Made by a program: the position numbers and the translations under genes
Shown: positions 19,186 to 61,253 of the stretch, one piece after another
Numbering within the stretch: the first letter of the stretch is position 1
Layout of the letters: each line of letters starts with the position of its first letter
Assembly: GCF_005405585.1 (NCBI RefSeq)
Contig: NZ_BJEQ01000005.1
Span: 62,001-126,000, forward strand
From: Agarivorans sp. Toyoura001
GTDB taxonomy: Bacteria; Pseudomonadota; Gammaproteobacteria; Enterobacterales; Celerinatantimonadaceae
Direction of reading: 5' to 3'
DNA length: 64,000 nucleotides
The notes under the pieces: generated by a model
Database searches by the model: none
Told to the model about the DNA's origin: nothing
The model's input: only the letters and a program-made list of their open reading frames with translations

Positions 19186-19605
19186 CTAACTCACTTGTTT
19201 GTAGCAACTATGCAAATGTTTATCGATACCACCAAGCACTTCTTCGCGCGTGATAATGCCCAAAAGTTTGCCCCGCTCGATAACTGGGTACATTTTGGGC
19301 TTTTGCTGAAGCATGCTTTGAGCAAGTTCTAGTATGCTAGTGTCTGGGCCTACAATAAGTACATCGCTACGCATCACGTCTTCCACTAAAGATACGGTTT
19401 CGCAATGGTAGGTGGCCTCTAACAAACTCTTTAAACAGTCTTGTTCTGATATCCAACCAATGACATGTTTTTGTTCATCAATCACTGGCGCGCCTAGCTG
19501 CTTGTGTTCCAATAAACTATGCACCACTTCGGCAATCGGCTGCTTAGAGGTAAAGCACACCGGACGAGTCAGCATGTAATCGCGAACTTTAAGATTCTCT
19601 GGCAT
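19186..19605 (-). CDS. Stand-alone CBS-domain pair protein
   Basis: A 139-residue protein made of two CBS repeats: VRDYMLTRPVCFTSKQPIAEV with GAPVIDEQKHVIGWISEQDCL, then VEDVMRSDVLIVGPDTSILEL with MYPVIERGKLLGIITREEVL. Such pairs bind adenine nucleotides and sense energy state; the partner is not identifiable. The frame stays open two codons upstream to a TTG, but GGAG eight bases ahead of the ATG at 19605 fixes the start there. It is alone on its transcript upstream of hrpA. Confidence 0.85.
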   Translation of the reverse strand: MPENLKVRDYMLTRPVCFTSKQPIAEVVHSLLEHKQLGAPVIDEQKHVIGWISEQDCLKSLLEATYHCETVSLVEDVMRSDVLIVGPDTSILELAQSMLQQKPKMYPVIERGKLLGIITREEVLGGIDKHLHSCYKQVS

Positions 19606-19712
19606 AACCAATACTCCTAATAAGTGCTGTTACTTTGAGCTTAGTTGTCCAGAGACAATTACACCAGCAAGCCAATCAACTCTGCTGGAAACCACTATTT
19701 TAGGGATGTTAG

Positions 19713-19876
19713 GCAATTTCACCCATTTGGGTAATAGTAGAGGACAGCTTAGCGGAGTAGTATTTATATCGACTGAGTCGCTAACTCAGTCATCGCGTTT
19801 AGTTACCTATTGCTGTGTACACCTTTTACACAAATTATGCAGGCCCTTTGTTTTTATAAACAAAGGGCTTTTTTTT
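19713..19876 (+). ncRNA. Putative small RNA, copy 1 of a tandem pair
   Basis: About 164 nt of non-coding DNA with ordered structure: a CCCATTTGGG hairpin at the 5' end, a GACTGAGT-CGCTA-ACTCAGTC hairpin, a nearly invariant stretch (CGCGTTTAGTTACC then TATTGCTGTGTACACC), and a terminator GCCCTTTGTTT-TTAT-AAACAAAGGGC followed by T8. A second copy starts 64 bases downstream; loop bases and arms change together while stems are kept. No gene follows on the plus strand, which argues against a riboswitch. No convincing -35/-10 pair was found. I do not recognise the family. Confidence 0.7.
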
Positions 19877-19940
19877 GCTTGTTTAACAAGCAAAAAGTTT
19901 ATGCAAGCTATTGAATATCAATAAATAAATAGCTAAAGGA

Positions 19941-20100
19941 GCAATTTCACCCATTTGGGGAATGGTGAACTAAAGCCGCTGAGGATAATATTTATCGCGA
20001 CTGAGTAGCTAACTCAGTCACGCGTTTAGTTACCTATTGCTGTGTACACCTTTACACAATTACGCAAGCCCTTTGCTGCTATAGCAAAGGGCTTTTTTTT
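19941..20100 (+). ncRNA. Putative small RNA, copy 2 of a tandem pair
   Basis: About 160 nt, clearly homologous to the copy at 19713. It has the same start (GCAATTTCACCCATTTGGG), a GACTGAGT-AGCTA-ACTCAGTC hairpin, the conserved CGCGTTTAGTTACC and TATTGCTGTGTACACC block, and a terminator with stem GCCCTTTGCT-GCTAT-AGCAAAGGGC and T8. The terminator stem differs from copy 1 by paired changes, showing selection for structure. It ends two bases from the convergent pyrC stop codon. An A/T-rich stretch (ATAAATAAATAG) just upstream could hold a -10 element, but no promoter is assigned. Confidence 0.7.
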
Positions 20101-20102
20101 GC

Positions 20103-21137
20103 CTACTTAACTTGCCACTGTAGGGTTTCACCAGCAAAAAACGGTACTAAGGTCTCATCTTCAACCATTACACTTTCTGGCACTTGCCATGCTTGCTTGC
20201 TTAACGTAATCGTTTCGCTGTTACGTGGTAAACCGTAAAAGTCAGGGCCATTAAAACTTGCAAACCCTTCTAACTTATCCAGTATGCCTAGCTGGTCAAA
20301 AATTTCTGCATATAGTTCAATGGCAGCCGGCGCACTGTAACAACCCGCACAACCACATGCACTTTCTTTGGCTCCTTGCACGTGAGGTGCAGAATCAGTT
20401 CCCAAAAATATCTTCTTAGTGCCAGTAGCCACTGCTTTTTGCAACGCCTGTTGGTGAGTTTGACGCTTTAATACGGGTAAACAATAGTTGTGAGGGCGTA
20501 AACCTCCCGCTAACAAATGATTTCGGTTGTACATTAAATGCTGCGGAGTAATAGTTGCTGCGACATTATCTGGCGCACTCATCACAAACTCGGCGGCCTC
20601 TGCAGTAGTAATGTGCTCAAACACTATTTTAAGGTCTGGCAAAGAAGCGACTAAGTCGCGCATGTGTGCGTCAATAAACGCAGCTTCTCTATCAAAAATG
20701 TCGATATCTGAATGCGTTACTTCGCCATGCACTAACAGCAATAAACCTTGCTCAGCCATTGCTTGGAAAACTGGACGTAAAGCACTTACATTGGTTACGC
20801 CGTGGGCAGAATTTGTTGTTGCGTTTGCTGGGTACAGCTTACAAGCTTTAACAATGCCGCTGGCTGCTGCCTCGGCGATCATTTCAGGACTCGTGGCGTC
20901 GGTTAAATATAAAGTCATTAACGGTTCAAACTGACATTGCTCAGGCAGGGTTTGTTTAATACGCTGATAATAAGCTTTAGCGTCACTGACTTGGGTAACC
21001 GGCGGAGTAAGATTTGGCATAATAATCGCGCGCGAAAAATGCTTAGCGGTCGCATTTGCTGCAACATTAAGCATTGCTCCGTCACGTAAATGTAAGTGCC
21101 AATCGTCTGGTCTAGTAATAGTAAGTGTTTGAGTCAC
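20103..21137 (-). CDS. pyrC: Dihydroorotase, class II (PyrC)
   Basis: Zinc amidohydrolase cyclising carbamoyl-aspartate to dihydroorotate in pyrimidine synthesis. [12 protein letters not shown] at the N-terminus carries the HxH metal ligands. Further motifs are IMPNLTPPV, the lysine region [13 protein letters not shown] (carboxylated Lys), [24 protein letters not shown] and [10 protein letters not shown] take the GTG at 21137 as the start because AGGGG lies about six bases upstream; the frame reads nine codons further to a TTG without a binding site. This gives 344 residues, close to the E. coli enzyme. It is not in an operon. Confidence 0.95.
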
Positions 21138-21219
21138 AACAATCCCCTGAGTCGATATTAACAATTCGCGGGAAGTCTACCCCAAGTGACTAAACAAGTC
21201 TTGTGAGCCTTGGCTATGC

Positions 21220-24200
21220 CTATGAATTATTTGCAACTAATTGCTGCATTTCATTAACAATGGTCTCGGCAGCTTCGTAATCATATTCTTCTATCAACTG
21301 CTGCAAGCGTTTTGCCTGAGACGGGAACCGCTGCAAAATAGCCTCATGTTGATCAAGAAAATCATTACTTTCGCTATCAAAGTCATCCAGCAATTGTGAC
21401 AAAGTTTGTAAATCAGAGAGTATTTCTTCATCGCTAACATTCGATTGAACAGCCGATTCAGGTTGAGCTTGCCGCTCACTACTAAGCTCAAATTGTTGTA
21501 AGGCTGCTTGTAGTGGTTGCAAGTGACTCGCCAGTTCGTCTAGTTGTTCACTTAATACTTCGCCCTGCTCTGCTGCCAGTTCTATCACTGCGGCTAAATC
21601 TGAAACAACTTGCGCACCTAAAGTTGCTGCCACGCCTTTTATGGTATGTGCAATACGTTGGACATCGGCTGTTTGGTGTTGCTGAAATGCCTGCTGTAAA
21701 TCAACCAAAGACGTATTATTAACACTGGCAAATTTGGCTATCAATTTCAAATATAGGGTTTTGTTTTCAGCTGCATTGGCTAGACCAACCGCAGTATCCA
21801 AGCCTTTAACAACTGGCAGTGCTTGGTATCCGTTGTCACTAGCGGTAATCGCCGGGTCAGCTGCAGACTCAAGTGCTGGCGCACTAGGCGTAATCCATTT
21901 AGCCATCACGCTAAACAAGCTATTTACATTAATGGGTTTGGGTATGTGATCATTCATGCCCGCTTCTATAGCTTTTTCTCTGTCGCCCGCTAATGCATTT
22001 GCCGTAAGCGCAATGATCGGCAGGTCTTTTAAGGCCAACTGATGACGTATCACTTTGGTGGCGGTGTACCCATCCATTACTGGCATTTGGCAATCCATTA
22101 ATACACCGTCTACTTGATGCGTTTTTAGATACTCGGCCGCTTGCATTCCATCCCCACAAACAACGCAGGAAATACCATTGGTTTTAAGCAGCTCAGTAAT
22201 CAACTCTTGGTTAATTTCATTGTCTTCGGCCACCAGTATATTTGCGCCACCTAAATGAGCTATATCTTGGTTTGCTCCATGCTGTTGAGCTTCTCGTCTA
22301 GTTTGCTCAAACACTTCTATGCGCCTTACGTCAATAACTGTATCGAATAAATGAGAAGGGGTCACTGGCTTGGTAAGAATGGCGTCTATTTTAATATCTT
22401 TGGCTTCTTTACTTAATTCATCGCGACCAAATGCAGTGATCATCACTACATCTAAATCGATACCTAGCGCTTCAATCTTACGTACTGTTTCAATGCCATC
22501 CATTTCTGGCATTTTCCAATCCATAAACACCATATCAAAAGGCTGTACATCAGACTCTTGCAGCACGACTAAAGCCTCTTTACCACTAGCGGCAGACTCT
22601 ACCGAAATTCCAAAGCCCTGTAGTACCTGAACATTGATTTCTTTGGCACTTGGATTGTCGTCAACCACCAGCGCTTTTAAGTTAGATAGCTGCGAATTGT
22701 TTGTATCGCGTAAGGCCTTGGCGTTTTTCTGAATCGCCATCGGTAAGTCGAAATAGAAACAACTGCCCTTACCTAGCTCACTGCTTAACGCAATTTTCCC
22801 GCCCATTATTTCAGTTAGTTTTAAACAAATCGCTAACCCTAATCCTGTACCGCCATGTTTACGTGTGGTCGAACTATCGGCTTGTGAAAAAGGTTTAAAT
22901 AACTTGGCTTGCTGCTCAGGTGTCATACCTATACCGGTATCACTTACCGAGAAATACATTTGTACTTGAGCGTCGGTGGTTTCTTTAGCCTCTATTTTTA
23001 CCACTACAACGCCTTGCTCGGTAAACTTCACCGCGTTGTTACACAAGTTCACGAGTATTTGTGTCAATCTAAGTGGATCTCCTAACAGTGCTGTTGGCAT
23101 GTTAGGGTCTATATCAAATAGTAACTCTAGGTTTTTTTGTTCGGCACGTAAGCCTACTAAATTAGCTAAATTGTCCAGAATATCTTCTAAACGAAACTCA
23201 ATCGCTTCGATGTCTAGCTTGCCAGCTTCTATTTTGGAGAAGTCGAGAATATCGTTAATGATGCCTAACAAAGCCTCTGCCGAGCGGTGTACCTTATCAA
23301 TGTAATTTCGCTGTTTATTGTCTAGTTCAGTTTCTAACGCTAAGTAAGACATACCAATAATCGCGTTCATTGGTGTTCTTATTTCATGCGACATATTGGC
23401 TAAAAAGTCACTCTTAGCTTGGTTAGCACTGTCTGCTTGAGCGCGAGCGTCATTTAACTGGTCTTCCAGTTGTTTAATCTCGTTAATATCAACATGAATA
23501 CCGTTAATTCGTATTGGTCGTCCCTCATCATCGAGCTCGGACACGCGGCCAATGCTTAATATCCAGCGGTATTGGCCGTTTTTACAGCGCAAACGTATTT
23601 CGTTACGTAATAAATCCGTTTCCCCGGCTAAGTGCTCTTCTAGCTTGTCATTGTTACGAATTGCATCTGTAGGATGAATTAACTTAAGCCACGCTTCGGT
23701 ATCCCCTTTTAAACGTGCCCACAATCCATCACCCGCACGTAATTCGCCAGCAGCGTAGCCAAGCATACTCTCGTAAATAGCATTCACTTCTATCCGGTCT
23801 TCTTGCGGATAGTAATCCCACATCCCTAAGCCTGCGCCAGACGCCGCAGAATCTAATCGCTCTTCACTTTCGCGTAATTGCGCCTCTACTTGTTTAATTT
23901 CAGAAATATCGAAGATAGCGCCATCAGAAAAAGTAGCTTGCCCCTCTTCACCTAGGGAAACAAAAGCTTTTTGCAGCACGTGTTTTTCGCGGCCGTGAGC
24001 ATCAATAATTCTAAACTCTTGAGAAATAGCGCCGCCTTTTTGATTGAGATCTTTCGAACGGTCAATGCTTTCTTGATAATCATCAGGGTGAACAAGATCT
24101 TTATAACGCCGGGGCGCATTAGGCCCTACAAAGTCTTCGACTGGGTAACCCGTTTGCTCAAGCACTTGCTCGCTAACATACAACCACTCTGGTGCTTCAC

Positions 24201-26295
24201 CTTCTACCAGTTTTACCCGATAAATTACGCATTGTAAGTTGTTGGTCAGGGTTCTAAATTGACGTTCGCTGTCGGCCAATTTTTGCTGGGCTTTTTTACG
24301 TTCAGTAATATCGCGAATGATACCGGTGAAGTGGCGTTTTCCTTTTAGGAACACCTCTTTAACTGCCAGTTCCATGGGAAACTCTTCACCGCTTTTACGT
24401 AAACCAAATACTGCGCGCTCGTTACCAATAACGACCGAGTTTGGTTTTGGTTGATAATCAGCTAAGGTTTGATCGTGATGGTCGGCAATAGACTTTGGCA
24501 TGAGCATTTTAACGTTATTACCTACAACTTCTTGCTCGGTGTAGCCAAATATTTGCTGAGCAGCAGGGCTAAAACTACGCACAATGCCAGATTGCTCTAT
24601 CAGCACAATACCGTCGGCAATGGTATCCACAATGGTGCGGATCCTTTCTTCATTATCGGCCAAGGCCAAACGCGCTTGGTAGCGCTCGGTCATATCAATA
24701 AGTGAGACTTTTACTTCAACGATTTTGTCGTTTTCCACAACACCTGGCGCAATATTAACACTGACATTTTTTTGCTGGCCATCAGCGCAAATAATGCTCA
24801 ATGTTTCATCGTTAAAGCTTTTTCCTTGTAGCGCACTTTGCAGCAGCTGTTTAGCCCACTGCTGGTTCGCATCATCTACACCTAATTGGTGCCAATGCAG
24901 ATGTTTAAATTGATCTCTCTGCTGATCGATTAACTCCGCAAGACTAAGATTATGTTTTAAAAACTTACCGTCTTCATTTAGCGAAGCATAAGCAATAGGG
25001 GCGTTTTCGTAGAGATCCCACAAGGTTTTTTCGCGTACCTGTAACTCTGCTGTGCGGTCTTCTACTTCTTGCTCTAATTCTGCTTTAGAGCGCTCTAAAC
25101 GCAGGTTTATTTTGCGAACTAAGGCAAACACCAAAACAAACAATAGAATGCAAAATGCGAGGGCCGAACCCAGTACCAACAACACAATATTACGAAAACG
25201 TAAGTAACCCTGCATCACTTCTTCATGATCAATCTCGGATACTAAGCCTATTTCTAGCTCCGGATCCCAGCGCCATGCACCAACAACGGCTACTCCTCGA
25301 TAATCTTTGTAGCCAATAAAATTGCCGCCGTCTTGCTTGGCAATAATTGAATAGCCGCTCTCCGTCCAGACTGGATCACCGCCTTTACGATTAGGGACTT
25401 GAAGCTTAATGTTAAGTACTGAAGATTGCTTGTCATTAAGTAAACCTAAAGCGGTCAACTCATCTTCAAATTTACTGGGTGAAATCATATAACCTGAACG
25501 GCTAACCAAATAGGTTTCGCCGGTTTTACCAATACGAGCACCTTTTAATAGTTGCGAGAACTCGGTCTGCGGATCCATGCGCAGAGTCAACAATGCCACA
25601 ACCTTACCATCTCGATTTTTTATCGGTGCGGCAATAAACATGGTGGAATGCACATTTTGCACTTTACCTTGCAACATGCCGTCTAAATTTATCTCGGGGC
25701 GAATGGGCGGAATAATCACCGTTTCACCGTTAAACGCGCGATTCAGCAAATGTGGGTAGTAACGAGTAATAACGTTGATTTCACCAAGGTTTTCATCTCG
25801 CATTGAGGCAATATTTATGCGGTCTCTAGAAATGATGAAAAAACCTAAATCATCAAAAATCGCACGATAATTTTCAACAGACTGACGCAAGCCTTCTAAT
25901 GCGGGGTCATCAATTAAACTGTCTTTTGAATGTTCTGCTTCAATTAGCACTGTAGAAAAATGCTTAAAGGTGGGATCTAAGGCAATCGCATCAACTTTAG
26001 ATTGCCAGCCTTGCTTCCATTCGTCCAAGCCAGCATCAGAAGTATCAAGCACTGATTCAATAACATCTTCTAACTGGGAGAACTGATGATGTTTTAGTTG
26101 TTGCAGGCCAATACTGGTTACCGCAGCGATAAAAGCAATAGCTGCCGTACATATGGCAACAATCACTAAAATACTTTTACGCGAGCTAAGTAATAAGCTG
26201 ACATTTTCAATGGTTGATTTACGCAACCTGTTCAAAAGCATCACGATTAAAATGAGTAAGGCAAACAGTACCCATAACAATTGCTCAACTTGCAT
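21220..26295 (-). CDS. Hybrid sensor histidine kinase: Cache, four PAS, HisKA/HATPase, two receivers, HPt
   Basis: A 1691-residue membrane phosphorelay kinase. In order: a short N-terminal TM helix, a second TM helix (IVAICTAAIAFIAAV), a periplasmic double-Cache-like sensor to about residue 365, a third TM helix (LLVLGSALAFCILLF), four PAS/PAC units, HisKA with the phospho-acceptor in ANMSHEIRTPMNA, and HATPase_c (DTGIGM, GGTGLGLAI). These are followed by receivers with VFMDWKMPEMDG and VLMDCQMPVMDG, and a C-terminal HPt with HTIKGVAATLG. AAGGAAAG before the ATG at 26295 sets the start; the open frame runs 16 codons further upstream. No cognate regulator is nearby, so output partner and ligand are unknown. 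Confidence 0.92.
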   Translation of the reverse strand: MQVEQLLWVLFALLILIVMLLNRLRKSTIENVSLLLSSRKSILVIVAICTAAIAFIAAVTSIGLQQLKHHQFSQLEDVIESVLDTSDAGLDEWKQGWQSKVDAIALDPTFKHFSTVLIEAEHSKDSLIDDPALEGLRQSVENYRAIFDDLGFFIISRDRINIASMRDENLGEINVITRYYPHLLNRAFNGETVIIPPIRPEINLDGMLQGKVQNVHSTMFIAAPIKNRDGKVVALLTLRMDPQTEFSQLLKGARIGKTGETYLVSRSGYMISPSKFEDELTALGLLNDKQSSVLNIKLQVPNRKGGDPVWTESGYSIIAKQDGGNFIGYKDYRGVAVVGAWRWDPELEIGLVSEIDHEEVMQGYLRFRNIVLLVLGSALAFCILLFVLVFALVRKINLRLERSKAELEQEVEDRTAELQVREKTLWDLYENAPIAYASLNEDGKFLKHNLSLAELIDQQRDQFKHLHWHQLGVDDANQQWAKQLLQSALQGKSFNDETLSIICADGQQKNVSVNIAPGVVENDKIVEVKVSLIDMTERYQARLALADNEERIRTIVDTIADGIVLIEQSGIVRSFSPAAQQIFGYTEQEVVGNNVKMLMPKSIADHHDQTLADYQPKPNSVVIGNERAVFGLRKSGEEFPMELAVKEVFLKGKRHFTGIIRDITERKKAQQKLADSERQFRTLTNNLQCVIYRVKLVEGEAPEWLYVSEQVLEQTGYPVEDFVGPNAPRRYKDLVHPDDYQESIDRSKDLNQKGGAISQEFRIIDAHGREKHVLQKAFVSLGEEGQATFSDGAIFDISEIKQVEAQLRESEERLDSAASGAGLGMWDYYPQEDRIEVNAIYESMLGYAAGELRAGDGLWARLKGDTEAWLKLIHPTDAIRNNDKLEEHLAGETDLLRNEIRLRCKNGQYRWILSIGRVSELDDEGRPIRINGIHVDINEIKQLEDQLNDARAQADSANQAKSDFLANMSHEIRTPMNAIIGMSYLALETELDNKQRNYIDKVHRSAEALLGIINDILDFSKIEAGKLDIEAIEFRLEDILDNLANLVGLRAEQKNLELLFDIDPNMPTALLGDPLRLTQILVNLCNNAVKFTEQGVVVVKIEAKETTDAQVQMYFSVSDTGIGMTPEQQAKLFKPFSQADSSTTRKHGGTGLGLAICLKLTEIMGGKIALSSELGKGSCFYFDLPMAIQKNAKALRDTNNSQLSNLKALVVDDNPSAKEINVQVLQGFGISVESAASGKEALVVLQESDVQPFDMVFMDWKMPEMDGIETVRKIEALGIDLDVVMITAFGRDELSKEAKDIKIDAILTKPVTPSHLFDTVIDVRRIEVFEQTRREAQQHGANQDIAHLGGANILVAEDNEINQELITELLKTNGISCVVCGDGMQAAEYLKTHQVDGVLMDCQMPVMDGYTATKVIRHQLALKDLPIIALTANALAGDREKAIEAGMNDHIPKPINVNSLFSVMAKWITPSAPALESAADPAITASDNGYQALPVVKGLDTAVGLANAAENKTLYLKLIAKFASVNNTSLVDLQQAFQQHQTADVQRIAHTIKGVAATLGAQVVSDLAAVIELAAEQGEVLSEQLDELASHLQPLQAALQQFELSSERQAQPESAVQSNVSDEEILSDLQTLSQLLDDFDSESNDFLDQHEAILQRFPSQAKRLQQLIEEYDYEAAETIVNEMQQLVANNS

Positions 26296-60323: not shown

Positions 60324-61253
60324 ATGAAAGTAAAAACTCTTGCTGTTATGATGCTAGGAGCTTTAAGCACTAGTGTATCCGCTGCCAATACCACGCCAGC
60401 AGAGGTGCTAGACCTATCTTGTTGGAAAGTAACGTTGCCAGTGTCTTTAGACAATGGCGATCGCCCTACTGAATTCAGTGAAAAAGAGATCGCTAAAGGC
60501 GCGATGCACGCTGATTACTTTTACGTAAATGAAGCAAAAGACGGCGTTGTTTTCCGTTCTCCTGTTCAAGGGATAAAAACCTCTAAAAAAACGAAGTATG
60601 TTCGCTCAGAGCTTCGTGAAATGATGCGTTGCGGCAACACCAGCCACAAAACTAAAGGCGTTAACGGTAACAACTGGGTATTTGGTCATAACGAGTCAGC
60701 AGATTCATTGAAAAATGCAGCGGGTGTGGATGGTAACTTAAAAGCGACTCTGTCTGTTGATCACGTAACCTCTACCGGTGAAATTTGGCAACAAGGCCGC
60801 GTTATTATTGGTCAAATTCATGCACCCGATGATGAGCCAGTTAAAATTTACTACCGTAAACTGCCTAACCATGAAACGGGTTCGGTATGGATAAGCCACG
60901 AGCCAAATGGTGGCGATGATATTACCTTCCCAATGATTGGCCCAACTAAACCAAATTACTGGAAACAAAAAGATAAAGACATCGCTAAGTCATATGATGA
61001 CGGTATCGCTTTAGGCGAGAAGTTCTCTTACGAAATTGACATTAATGGCGCTGATATGACAGTAACGATTAGCCGTGAAGGCAAAGCCGATGTGGTGCAA
61101 AAAGTAGATATGCAAAATTCTGGCTACGGCTTAGAAGACCAATGGATGTATTTCAAAGCGGGTGTATACAATCAAAACCGCTCTGGTGACCCAGAAGACT
61201 ACGTTCAAGCAACGTTTTACAGCTTAGACGTCACTCACGGCGCGGCTAAATAA
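60324..61253 (+). CDS. Secreted single-domain alginate lyase, PL7
   Basis: Exported alginate lyase of 309 residues: signal peptide (MKVKTLAVMMLGALSTSVSA) followed directly by the PL7 domain. Signatures are SELREMM, IIGQIHAPDDEPVKIYYRK, and YFKAGVYNQNRSG; these are the catalytic-cleft strands with the Gln-His pair. It is clearly homologous to the catalytic domain of the modular lyase at 45460 but has no binding domain, so it may process soluble oligomers. GAAGGTGA lies upstream of the ATG, and a terminator follows. Confidence 0.93.
   Translation: MKVKTLAVMMLGALSTSVSAANTTPAEVLDLSCWKVTLPVSLDNGDRPTEFSEKEIAKGAMHADYFYVNEAKDGVVFRSPVQGIKTSKKTKYVRSELREMMRCGNTSHKTKGVNGNNWVFGHNESADSLKNAAGVDGNLKATLSVDHVTSTGEIWQQGRVIIGQIHAPDDEPVKIYYRKLPNHETGSVWISHEPNGGDDITFPMIGPTKPNYWKQKDKDIAKSYDDGIALGEKFSYEIDINGADMTVTISREGKADVVQKVDMQNSGYGLEDQWMYFKAGVYNQNRSGDPEDYVQATFYSLDVTHGAAK

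Follow-up and report, generated by a model that had tools for sequence, protein, structure and literature searches.

Two genes of a new family of sibling small RNAs (sRNAs), restricted to one genus, probably lie in the window, by which is meant the whole 64,000-nucleotide stretch analysed; the RNAs would act by base pairing of the Hfq type and would add to each other's dose under a single activator. Both the trans action and the base pairing are what we infer from features of the sequence. Two homologous, non-coding units were found head to tail where an earlier note on this DNA had placed them, with a mean column identity of 84% when both were aligned. The alignment showed that the hairpin, the central block and the terminators were common to both units, while the loops and the stretch between box and hairpin differed. 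As the note had described, each unit carried a GACTGAGT/ACTCAGTC hairpin and a terminator of its own, with a central block that hardly differed between the two. The features of the two copies are given below, with putative sRNA start sites placed from the -10 hexamer and hairpin 1; comparisons refer to 19 copies recovered from seven genomes of the genus.

19719..19735 (+): promoter box of copy 1, TCACCCATTTGGGTAAT, a putative activator site; the pattern TCACCCATTTGGGNAAT is exact in 19/19 copies, 51 nt to hairpin 1
19758..19763 (+): -10-like hexamer of copy 1, TAGTAT; TANNAT in 18/19 copies
19770..19876 (+): sRNA copy 1, predicted transcript of ~107 nt; 116.2 bits with covariance model R1, which was built from these copies
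19771..19791 (+): hairpin 1 of copy 1, from folding; relatives show C-G replaced by U-A
19795..19813 (+): invariant segment GCGTTTAGTTACCTATTGC of copy 1, putative seed; unchanged in 19/19 copies
19815..19831 (+): inner hairpin GUGUA/UACAC of copy 1, from folding; five pairs without variation
19841..19876 (+): intrinsic terminator of copy 1, from terminator scan and covariation
19947..19963 (+): promoter box of copy 2, TCACCCATTTGGGGAAT; fixed spacing, exact pattern match
19986..19991 (+): -10-like hexamer of copy 2, TAATAT, from sequence; TANNAT in 18/19 copies
19998..20100 (+): sRNA copy 2, predicted transcript of ~103 nt; 124.3 bits with R1, built from these copies
19999..20019 (+): hairpin 1 of copy 2, from folding
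20022..20040 (+): invariant segment of copy 2, putative seed; unchanged in 19/19 copies
20042..20057 (+): inner hairpin of copy 2, from folding
20066..20100 (+): intrinsic terminator of copy 2, from terminator scan and covariation

A DNA search recovered copies from 7/7 genomes of the genus (2, 3, 3, 4, 3, 3 and 1 in G000, G001, G002, G003, G004, G005 and G006, respectively), always confined to one locus per genome. The tandem pair of the earlier note was thus accurate for the window and not as a rule, the array comprising 1–4 copies. In every genome the array adjoined a convergent gene (ORF 20103–21164 in the window) presumed to be pyrC, a name taken over from the earlier note, while its other flank was a divergent CBS-domain gene (PF00571). 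The order of a putative hrpA-like gene, the CBS gene, the array and pyrC was common to 6/7 genomes. In the remaining genome, G006 (L095), a single copy lay between pyrC and a PQQ-dehydrogenase gene; the latter and another ORF separated the array from the CBS gene, which was ~5 kb away. On the far side of pyrC, the window contained a very large hybrid sensor kinase (21223–26295, minus strand) with PAS, HisKA and HATPase domains, two receiver stretches, Hpt and a weak dCache; it occupied the same place in the six genomes with the common gene order. Elsewhere in the window, an alginate lyase (60324–61250, plus strand; PF08787, 220.9 bits) is consistent with a marine degrader of polysaccharides.

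In a tree built from the units, G001, G002, G004 and G005 had their first, second and third copies grouped according to position (support of 0.986, 1.000 and 1.000), while the four copies of G003 clustered together (0.977). The G003 copies (L092:7457–8294) were arranged at a 227-base period, reflecting recent tandem amplification. Since units grouped by position in the one case and by genome in the other, old duplications have persisted and a newer amplification has occurred.

Conservation of the block in relatives was evident in 7/7 congeners, and it was found within one genus only. Within the taxonomic family, model R1 matched 7 of 12 genomes, every one in that genus, and within the order it matched 8 of 394, 7 of which were the genus; searches over 40 genomes used stricter filters, under which weak matches are lost. 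The eighth match, in G058 (35.1 bits), covered hairpin 1 and the terminator only, with the central 45 positions missing, and was rejected. When R1 was applied to the window and 12 loci, it returned the 19 copies (from the window and the regions of six relatives) and 13 weaker matches of at most 22.6 bits, most of them antisense to the arrays. Short DNA matches concerned 29 bases upstream of the copy 2 transcript in G013, and sequence outside the RNAs or their seed in L014 and L015. The seed occurred in a genome contig collection in five stretches titled as Bacteroidetes or Mucilaginibacter MAGs, which were taken as chance. Two 17-base parts of the seed had no exact match in viral contigs, the box matched five viral stretches without an R1 match in any, and scans of phage and plasmid records gave no match; these collections, genomes included, may omit records close to the window's genome.

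The region upstream of each RNA had the look of an activator-dependent promoter, comprising a conserved box and a -10-like hexamer with no clear -35. The box element TCACCCATTTGGGKAAT was positioned exactly 51 nt 5' of hairpin 1 in 19/19 copies; equally, TCACCCATTTGGGK began exactly 51 nt ahead of CGAYTG in all 19. A TANNAT hexamer started at box +39, 6 nt ahead of CGAYTG, in 18/19 copies, the exception being G006 (TAAGCT). Mean pairwise identity was 0.85 in the box region, 0.37 in the 18-nt spacer and, ungapped, 0.34 in the 30 nt 5' of the box. The best match to TTGACA reached 2–4 of 6 bases with spacers of 16–20 nt, in a scan window set one base left of the hexamer. The centre of the box would fall at about -42.5 to -44.5; taking the C of CGAYTG as the RNA start places it near -43.5, some 2 bp beyond the position of a class II activator site of the classical kind. 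The 5' segment shared by the units had been noted earlier as part of the RNA; its conservation in both units stood, but with the box 51 nt from the hairpin and a -10-like hexamer between them, it probably lies outside the RNA. Because this segment looks like a promoter element, the length of 160 nt proposed earlier gives way to a predicted transcript of ~105 nt.

Exact boxes numbered 19 in the seven genomes, all of them at the arrays. With up to two mismatches, there were 60 sites (41 outside the arrays) against 53 in a reversed control; since the exact boxes are the arrays themselves and degenerate sites did not exceed the control, no wider regulon was visible. Across the order outside the genus, the box produced 7 sites in 6 genomes against 4 control matches. 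Four of these sites lay inside long open frames, three of the four being homologous. The other three (L103, L104 and L105, at about 1501, 1501 and 884) fell in the gap separating a small gene of LuxR type (GerE) from a DUF4199 gene (Pfam was applied to L103 and L105 alone), and came from three genera that belong to another family. Here a one-mismatch box formed a full 7-2-7 palindrome, TCACCCATTTGGGTGA, a conserved island in otherwise diverged DNA, which is possibly the site of the adjoining LuxR-type regulator; the product of the small LuxR-HTH gene had a hydrophobic N-terminus by eye. The -10 spacing of the sRNA promoters was not seen by eye at these loci. These sites are hints of a LuxR-type regulator for the box. 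However, this regulator was dropped as a named candidate, and no activator is named, because DUF4199 occurred in 0/12 genomes of the taxonomic family and the regulator had no full-length match there, matching by its C-terminal HTH only (E of 1e-8 or better). No paper was found in the literature for a VpsT consensus.

The predicted transcripts of the 19 copies were 101–108 nt long and shared one layout: hairpin 1, the invariant GCGTTTAGTTACCTATTGC, the GUGUA/UACAC hairpin inside a GCGU/AYGC stem, and the terminator. Box and terminator were present in each of the 19 copies, and comparison showed every copy to be complete in itself, running from box and -10-like hexamer through hairpin 1, the invariant segment and the inner hairpin to the terminator. 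Four of the RNAs were folded with shuffled controls and gave z-scores of -6.15 to -7.0, the two units in the window scoring -6.15 and -6.61, respectively. In the predicted folds of all copies, mean unpaired probability within the segment GUUUAGUUACCUAUUGC was 0.46–0.65, and the AC of ACCU was unpaired at 0.8 or above in 19/19. The four b-type copies had AGUU paired and ACCUAUUGC open, while most non-b-type copies had UUAC open and its flanks largely paired. No ORF in a consistent frame was found in the 19 transcripts; short frames opening with TTG inside the shared block reach at most 22 codons and diverge.

Selection on RNA structure, which the earlier note had read from base changes that kept pairing, was borne out when the intervals beside pyrC were compared between relatives. 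A structure set by hand was evaluated on 16 distinct rows (19 sequences) with 500 shuffles. Paired cells amounted to 98.6% (93.6% in shuffles), cells with both sides changed to 28 (7.7 in shuffles), and the covariation score was 0.238 (0.131 in shuffles); none of the 500 shuffles was as high for any of the three. Six pairs changed on both sides, one in hairpin 1 and five in the terminator, a number reached by 15/500 shuffles, and 'further pair types' were not above shuffles (410 of 500). Structures slid by 1–3 columns paired at only 24–50%. Two terminator pairs had three unpaired cells apiece. No variation occurs in the inner hairpin, which therefore gains no support from covariation. As a single genus supplied all the rows and relatedness is not preserved in the shuffles, independent covariation events are few.

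Taken with the compensatory pairs, the box and terminators, the lack of an Rfam match or ORF and the presence in 7/7 congeners, these results favour the earlier proposal of structured, duplicated, trans-acting sRNAs outside known families. The following mechanism is proposed. Given that the box geometry is fixed, an activator would bind the box, reaching the place of a -35, and turn on all copies together. The ~105-nt RNAs would then be stabilised by Hfq through their U-rich 3' ends, a step suggested by general knowledge of such RNAs; Hfq-bound sRNAs end in U-runs, as these RNAs do, and Hfq is encoded in 7/7 genomes of the genus. Because it is invariant and partly accessible, the conserved segment is expected to pair with mRNAs in trans and repress them, where ACCU could pair with ribosome-binding sites of the AGGU type. 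The chief effect of additional copies would be a higher dose, because all 19 carry the same segment, whereas their spacers and loops drift.

Targets were sought with two scans. A 15-mer seed scan returned 116 non-self sites, a modest excess over the 84 in the reversed control; 60 of the 116 were examined, and no string at a likely start codon recurred in a second species within that list. A start-site pattern gave 246 matches against 228 in the control, a count that includes the antisense of some array copies. No conserved start-site target was found among the matches listed, where orthologous sites with more than two mismatches would escape. Seed sites in single species lay upstream of a panB-like gene (G000), a U32-peptidase/ubiV-like gene (G006), a TRAP-permease-like gene (G000) and unnamed ORFs (G003 and G006); the gene names are putative, given from the protein text.

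One seed match concerned a prophage in G006, with Mu-type transposition genes, regulators, terminase and portal genes. An 18-nt exact match was located on the minus strand (L203:6910–6927; G006:C1 at about 1982909–1982926), flanked by a regulator-type gene and by one of unknown function. These two genes match successive parts of phrog_17822, and may for this reason be one gene elsewhere. On the RNA-sense strand, a hairpin came after the match and, ~3 nt beyond it, six consecutive T. Chance, a target site or a mimic of the seed could each explain the match; with base composition assumed, ~0.012 matches of 18 nt are expected in the seven genomes. This expectation, the regulator-type neighbour and the hairpin with its T run speak for RNAs that act mainly against phages, or are exploited by them, the prophage copy being target or mimic. 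Yet the match occurs in one genome only, the two seed parts lack exact viral matches, the surrounding 201 bases match no phage record and R1 finds no sRNA at the site, which leaves a primarily phage-directed role quite unlikely. It is conceivable, though unlikely, that the array is one side of a host–phage RNA contest, in which a genus-specific seed with a dedicated activator has been copied (seed and terminator) by a Mu-like prophage, or has a complementary site there next to a regulatory gene. A precedent for this prophage lead only is AgvB, described as a phage-encoded anti-sRNA that mimics the mRNA side of GcvB, and thus a phage-borne RNA engaging the seed of a core sRNA (PMC4104026). AgvB mimics the mRNA side, whereas the G006 site could be seed complement or seed copy.

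Comparison with known families was made through Rfam, where no family reached its cut-off at the gathering threshold, in keeping with the claim of the earlier note that the family is not a known one. A permissive search gave 19 matches, all weak, below cut-off and mutually unrelated. The best was Qrr (RF00378), aligned over its full length to both units at 29.8 and 29.4 bits (E = 0.0018 and 0.0022), and these RNAs share with Qrr the order of hairpin, linker, nested hairpin and terminator, as well as multiple copies. That they are divergent Qrr RNAs, a version in this genus of the quorum-sensing sRNAs of Vibrio, is nevertheless very unlikely. The gathering score is 50, and on the same DNA an unrelated trpB motif scored 29.4 bits and JA02, on the opposite strand, 27.8 bits. 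In the alignment, 11 positions adjoining the model's ACCUA are missing, and the core is thus not kept in full. A Qrr family search of 13 genomes (E of 0.001) matched 0/13, but carries little weight, as control genomes were likewise without a match. The sigma-54 consensus, GG-N10-GC at -24/-12, was absent at that position from 19 promoters; it was lacking altogether in 17/19, and the two matches lay misplaced at -70 and -34 from the hairpin. Finally, the copies here are tandem, whereas Qrr genes are listed as distal (PMC4211561).

Cis-acting elements (a leader, attenuator or 3'-end) rather than independent RNAs would account for two terminators lying so near each other in a short gap between genes, and a consensus sigma-70 promoter scan over the array found 0, compared with 1.7 in shuffles. 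Against this, and as the earlier note had argued, there is nothing downstream to regulate in cis: no plus-strand gene follows, the CBS gene is divergent and pyrC is convergent, its ORF ending at 20103. Every unit has its box, 18/19 a -10-like hexamer, and the terminator-like sites within 19550–20200 (2, against 0.5 expected) are both on the plus strand, all of which makes cis elements a very improbable explanation. Protein-titrating RNAs of the CsrB/RsmY type are also multi-copy and structured, with their own promoters, but GGA motifs numbered 0 in 19/19 transcripts and this identity is extremely unlikely. A repeated DNA element without RNA function would fit the variable tandem copy number and the recent amplification in G003, but is hardly credible for copies that are confined to one locus per genome and that preserve pairs, box and segment despite drift in their loops and spacers.

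The favoured reading, sibling sRNAs, agrees with the gene arrangement: by sequence, at least two homologous genes, each with its own promoter and terminator, occurred in 6/7 genomes (2–4 copies), and 1/7 had a single gene. When compared with the Fur box consensus, as a test for RNAs of the RyhB/PrrF type, the best sites over 19 copies matched 10–14 of 19 bases, with 14 in G000_b only and none conserved. OmrA/OmrB and PrrF1/PrrF2 resemble the array as tandem, paired short sRNA genes under a transcription factor, and Omr copy number varies between species (PMC4211561). OmrA and OmrB share their ends (PMC4211561), while the invariant part here is the middle. PrrF differs in that no conserved Fur-like box is present here. 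Neither pair was among the Rfam matches of these units.

Listeria is a distant host relative to the genus of the array. LhrC1-5 of Listeria monocytogenes nonetheless resemble the array as a set of similar sRNAs under one activator, in which every copy has a promoter of its own with conserved bases; these bases are important for activation by LisR, the five copies need this one two-component regulator and the authors propose additive action (PMC4132741). LhrC has C-rich segments and, unlike the RNAs here, a known target (PMC4132741). The sequence relation between the two was compared through Rfam only. Literature on small RNAs of Agarivorans, or on pyrC/Alteromonadales intergenic sRNAs, contained nothing on this locus in the portions available.

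These genes would represent an sRNA family without earlier description. The same seed and box, present in 1, 2, 3 or 4 copies among sister species, constitute a clean natural experiment in which the effect of sRNA gene dose would be testable. The box, in turn, would provide a handle on an activator that has its exact sites at these sRNAs alone.
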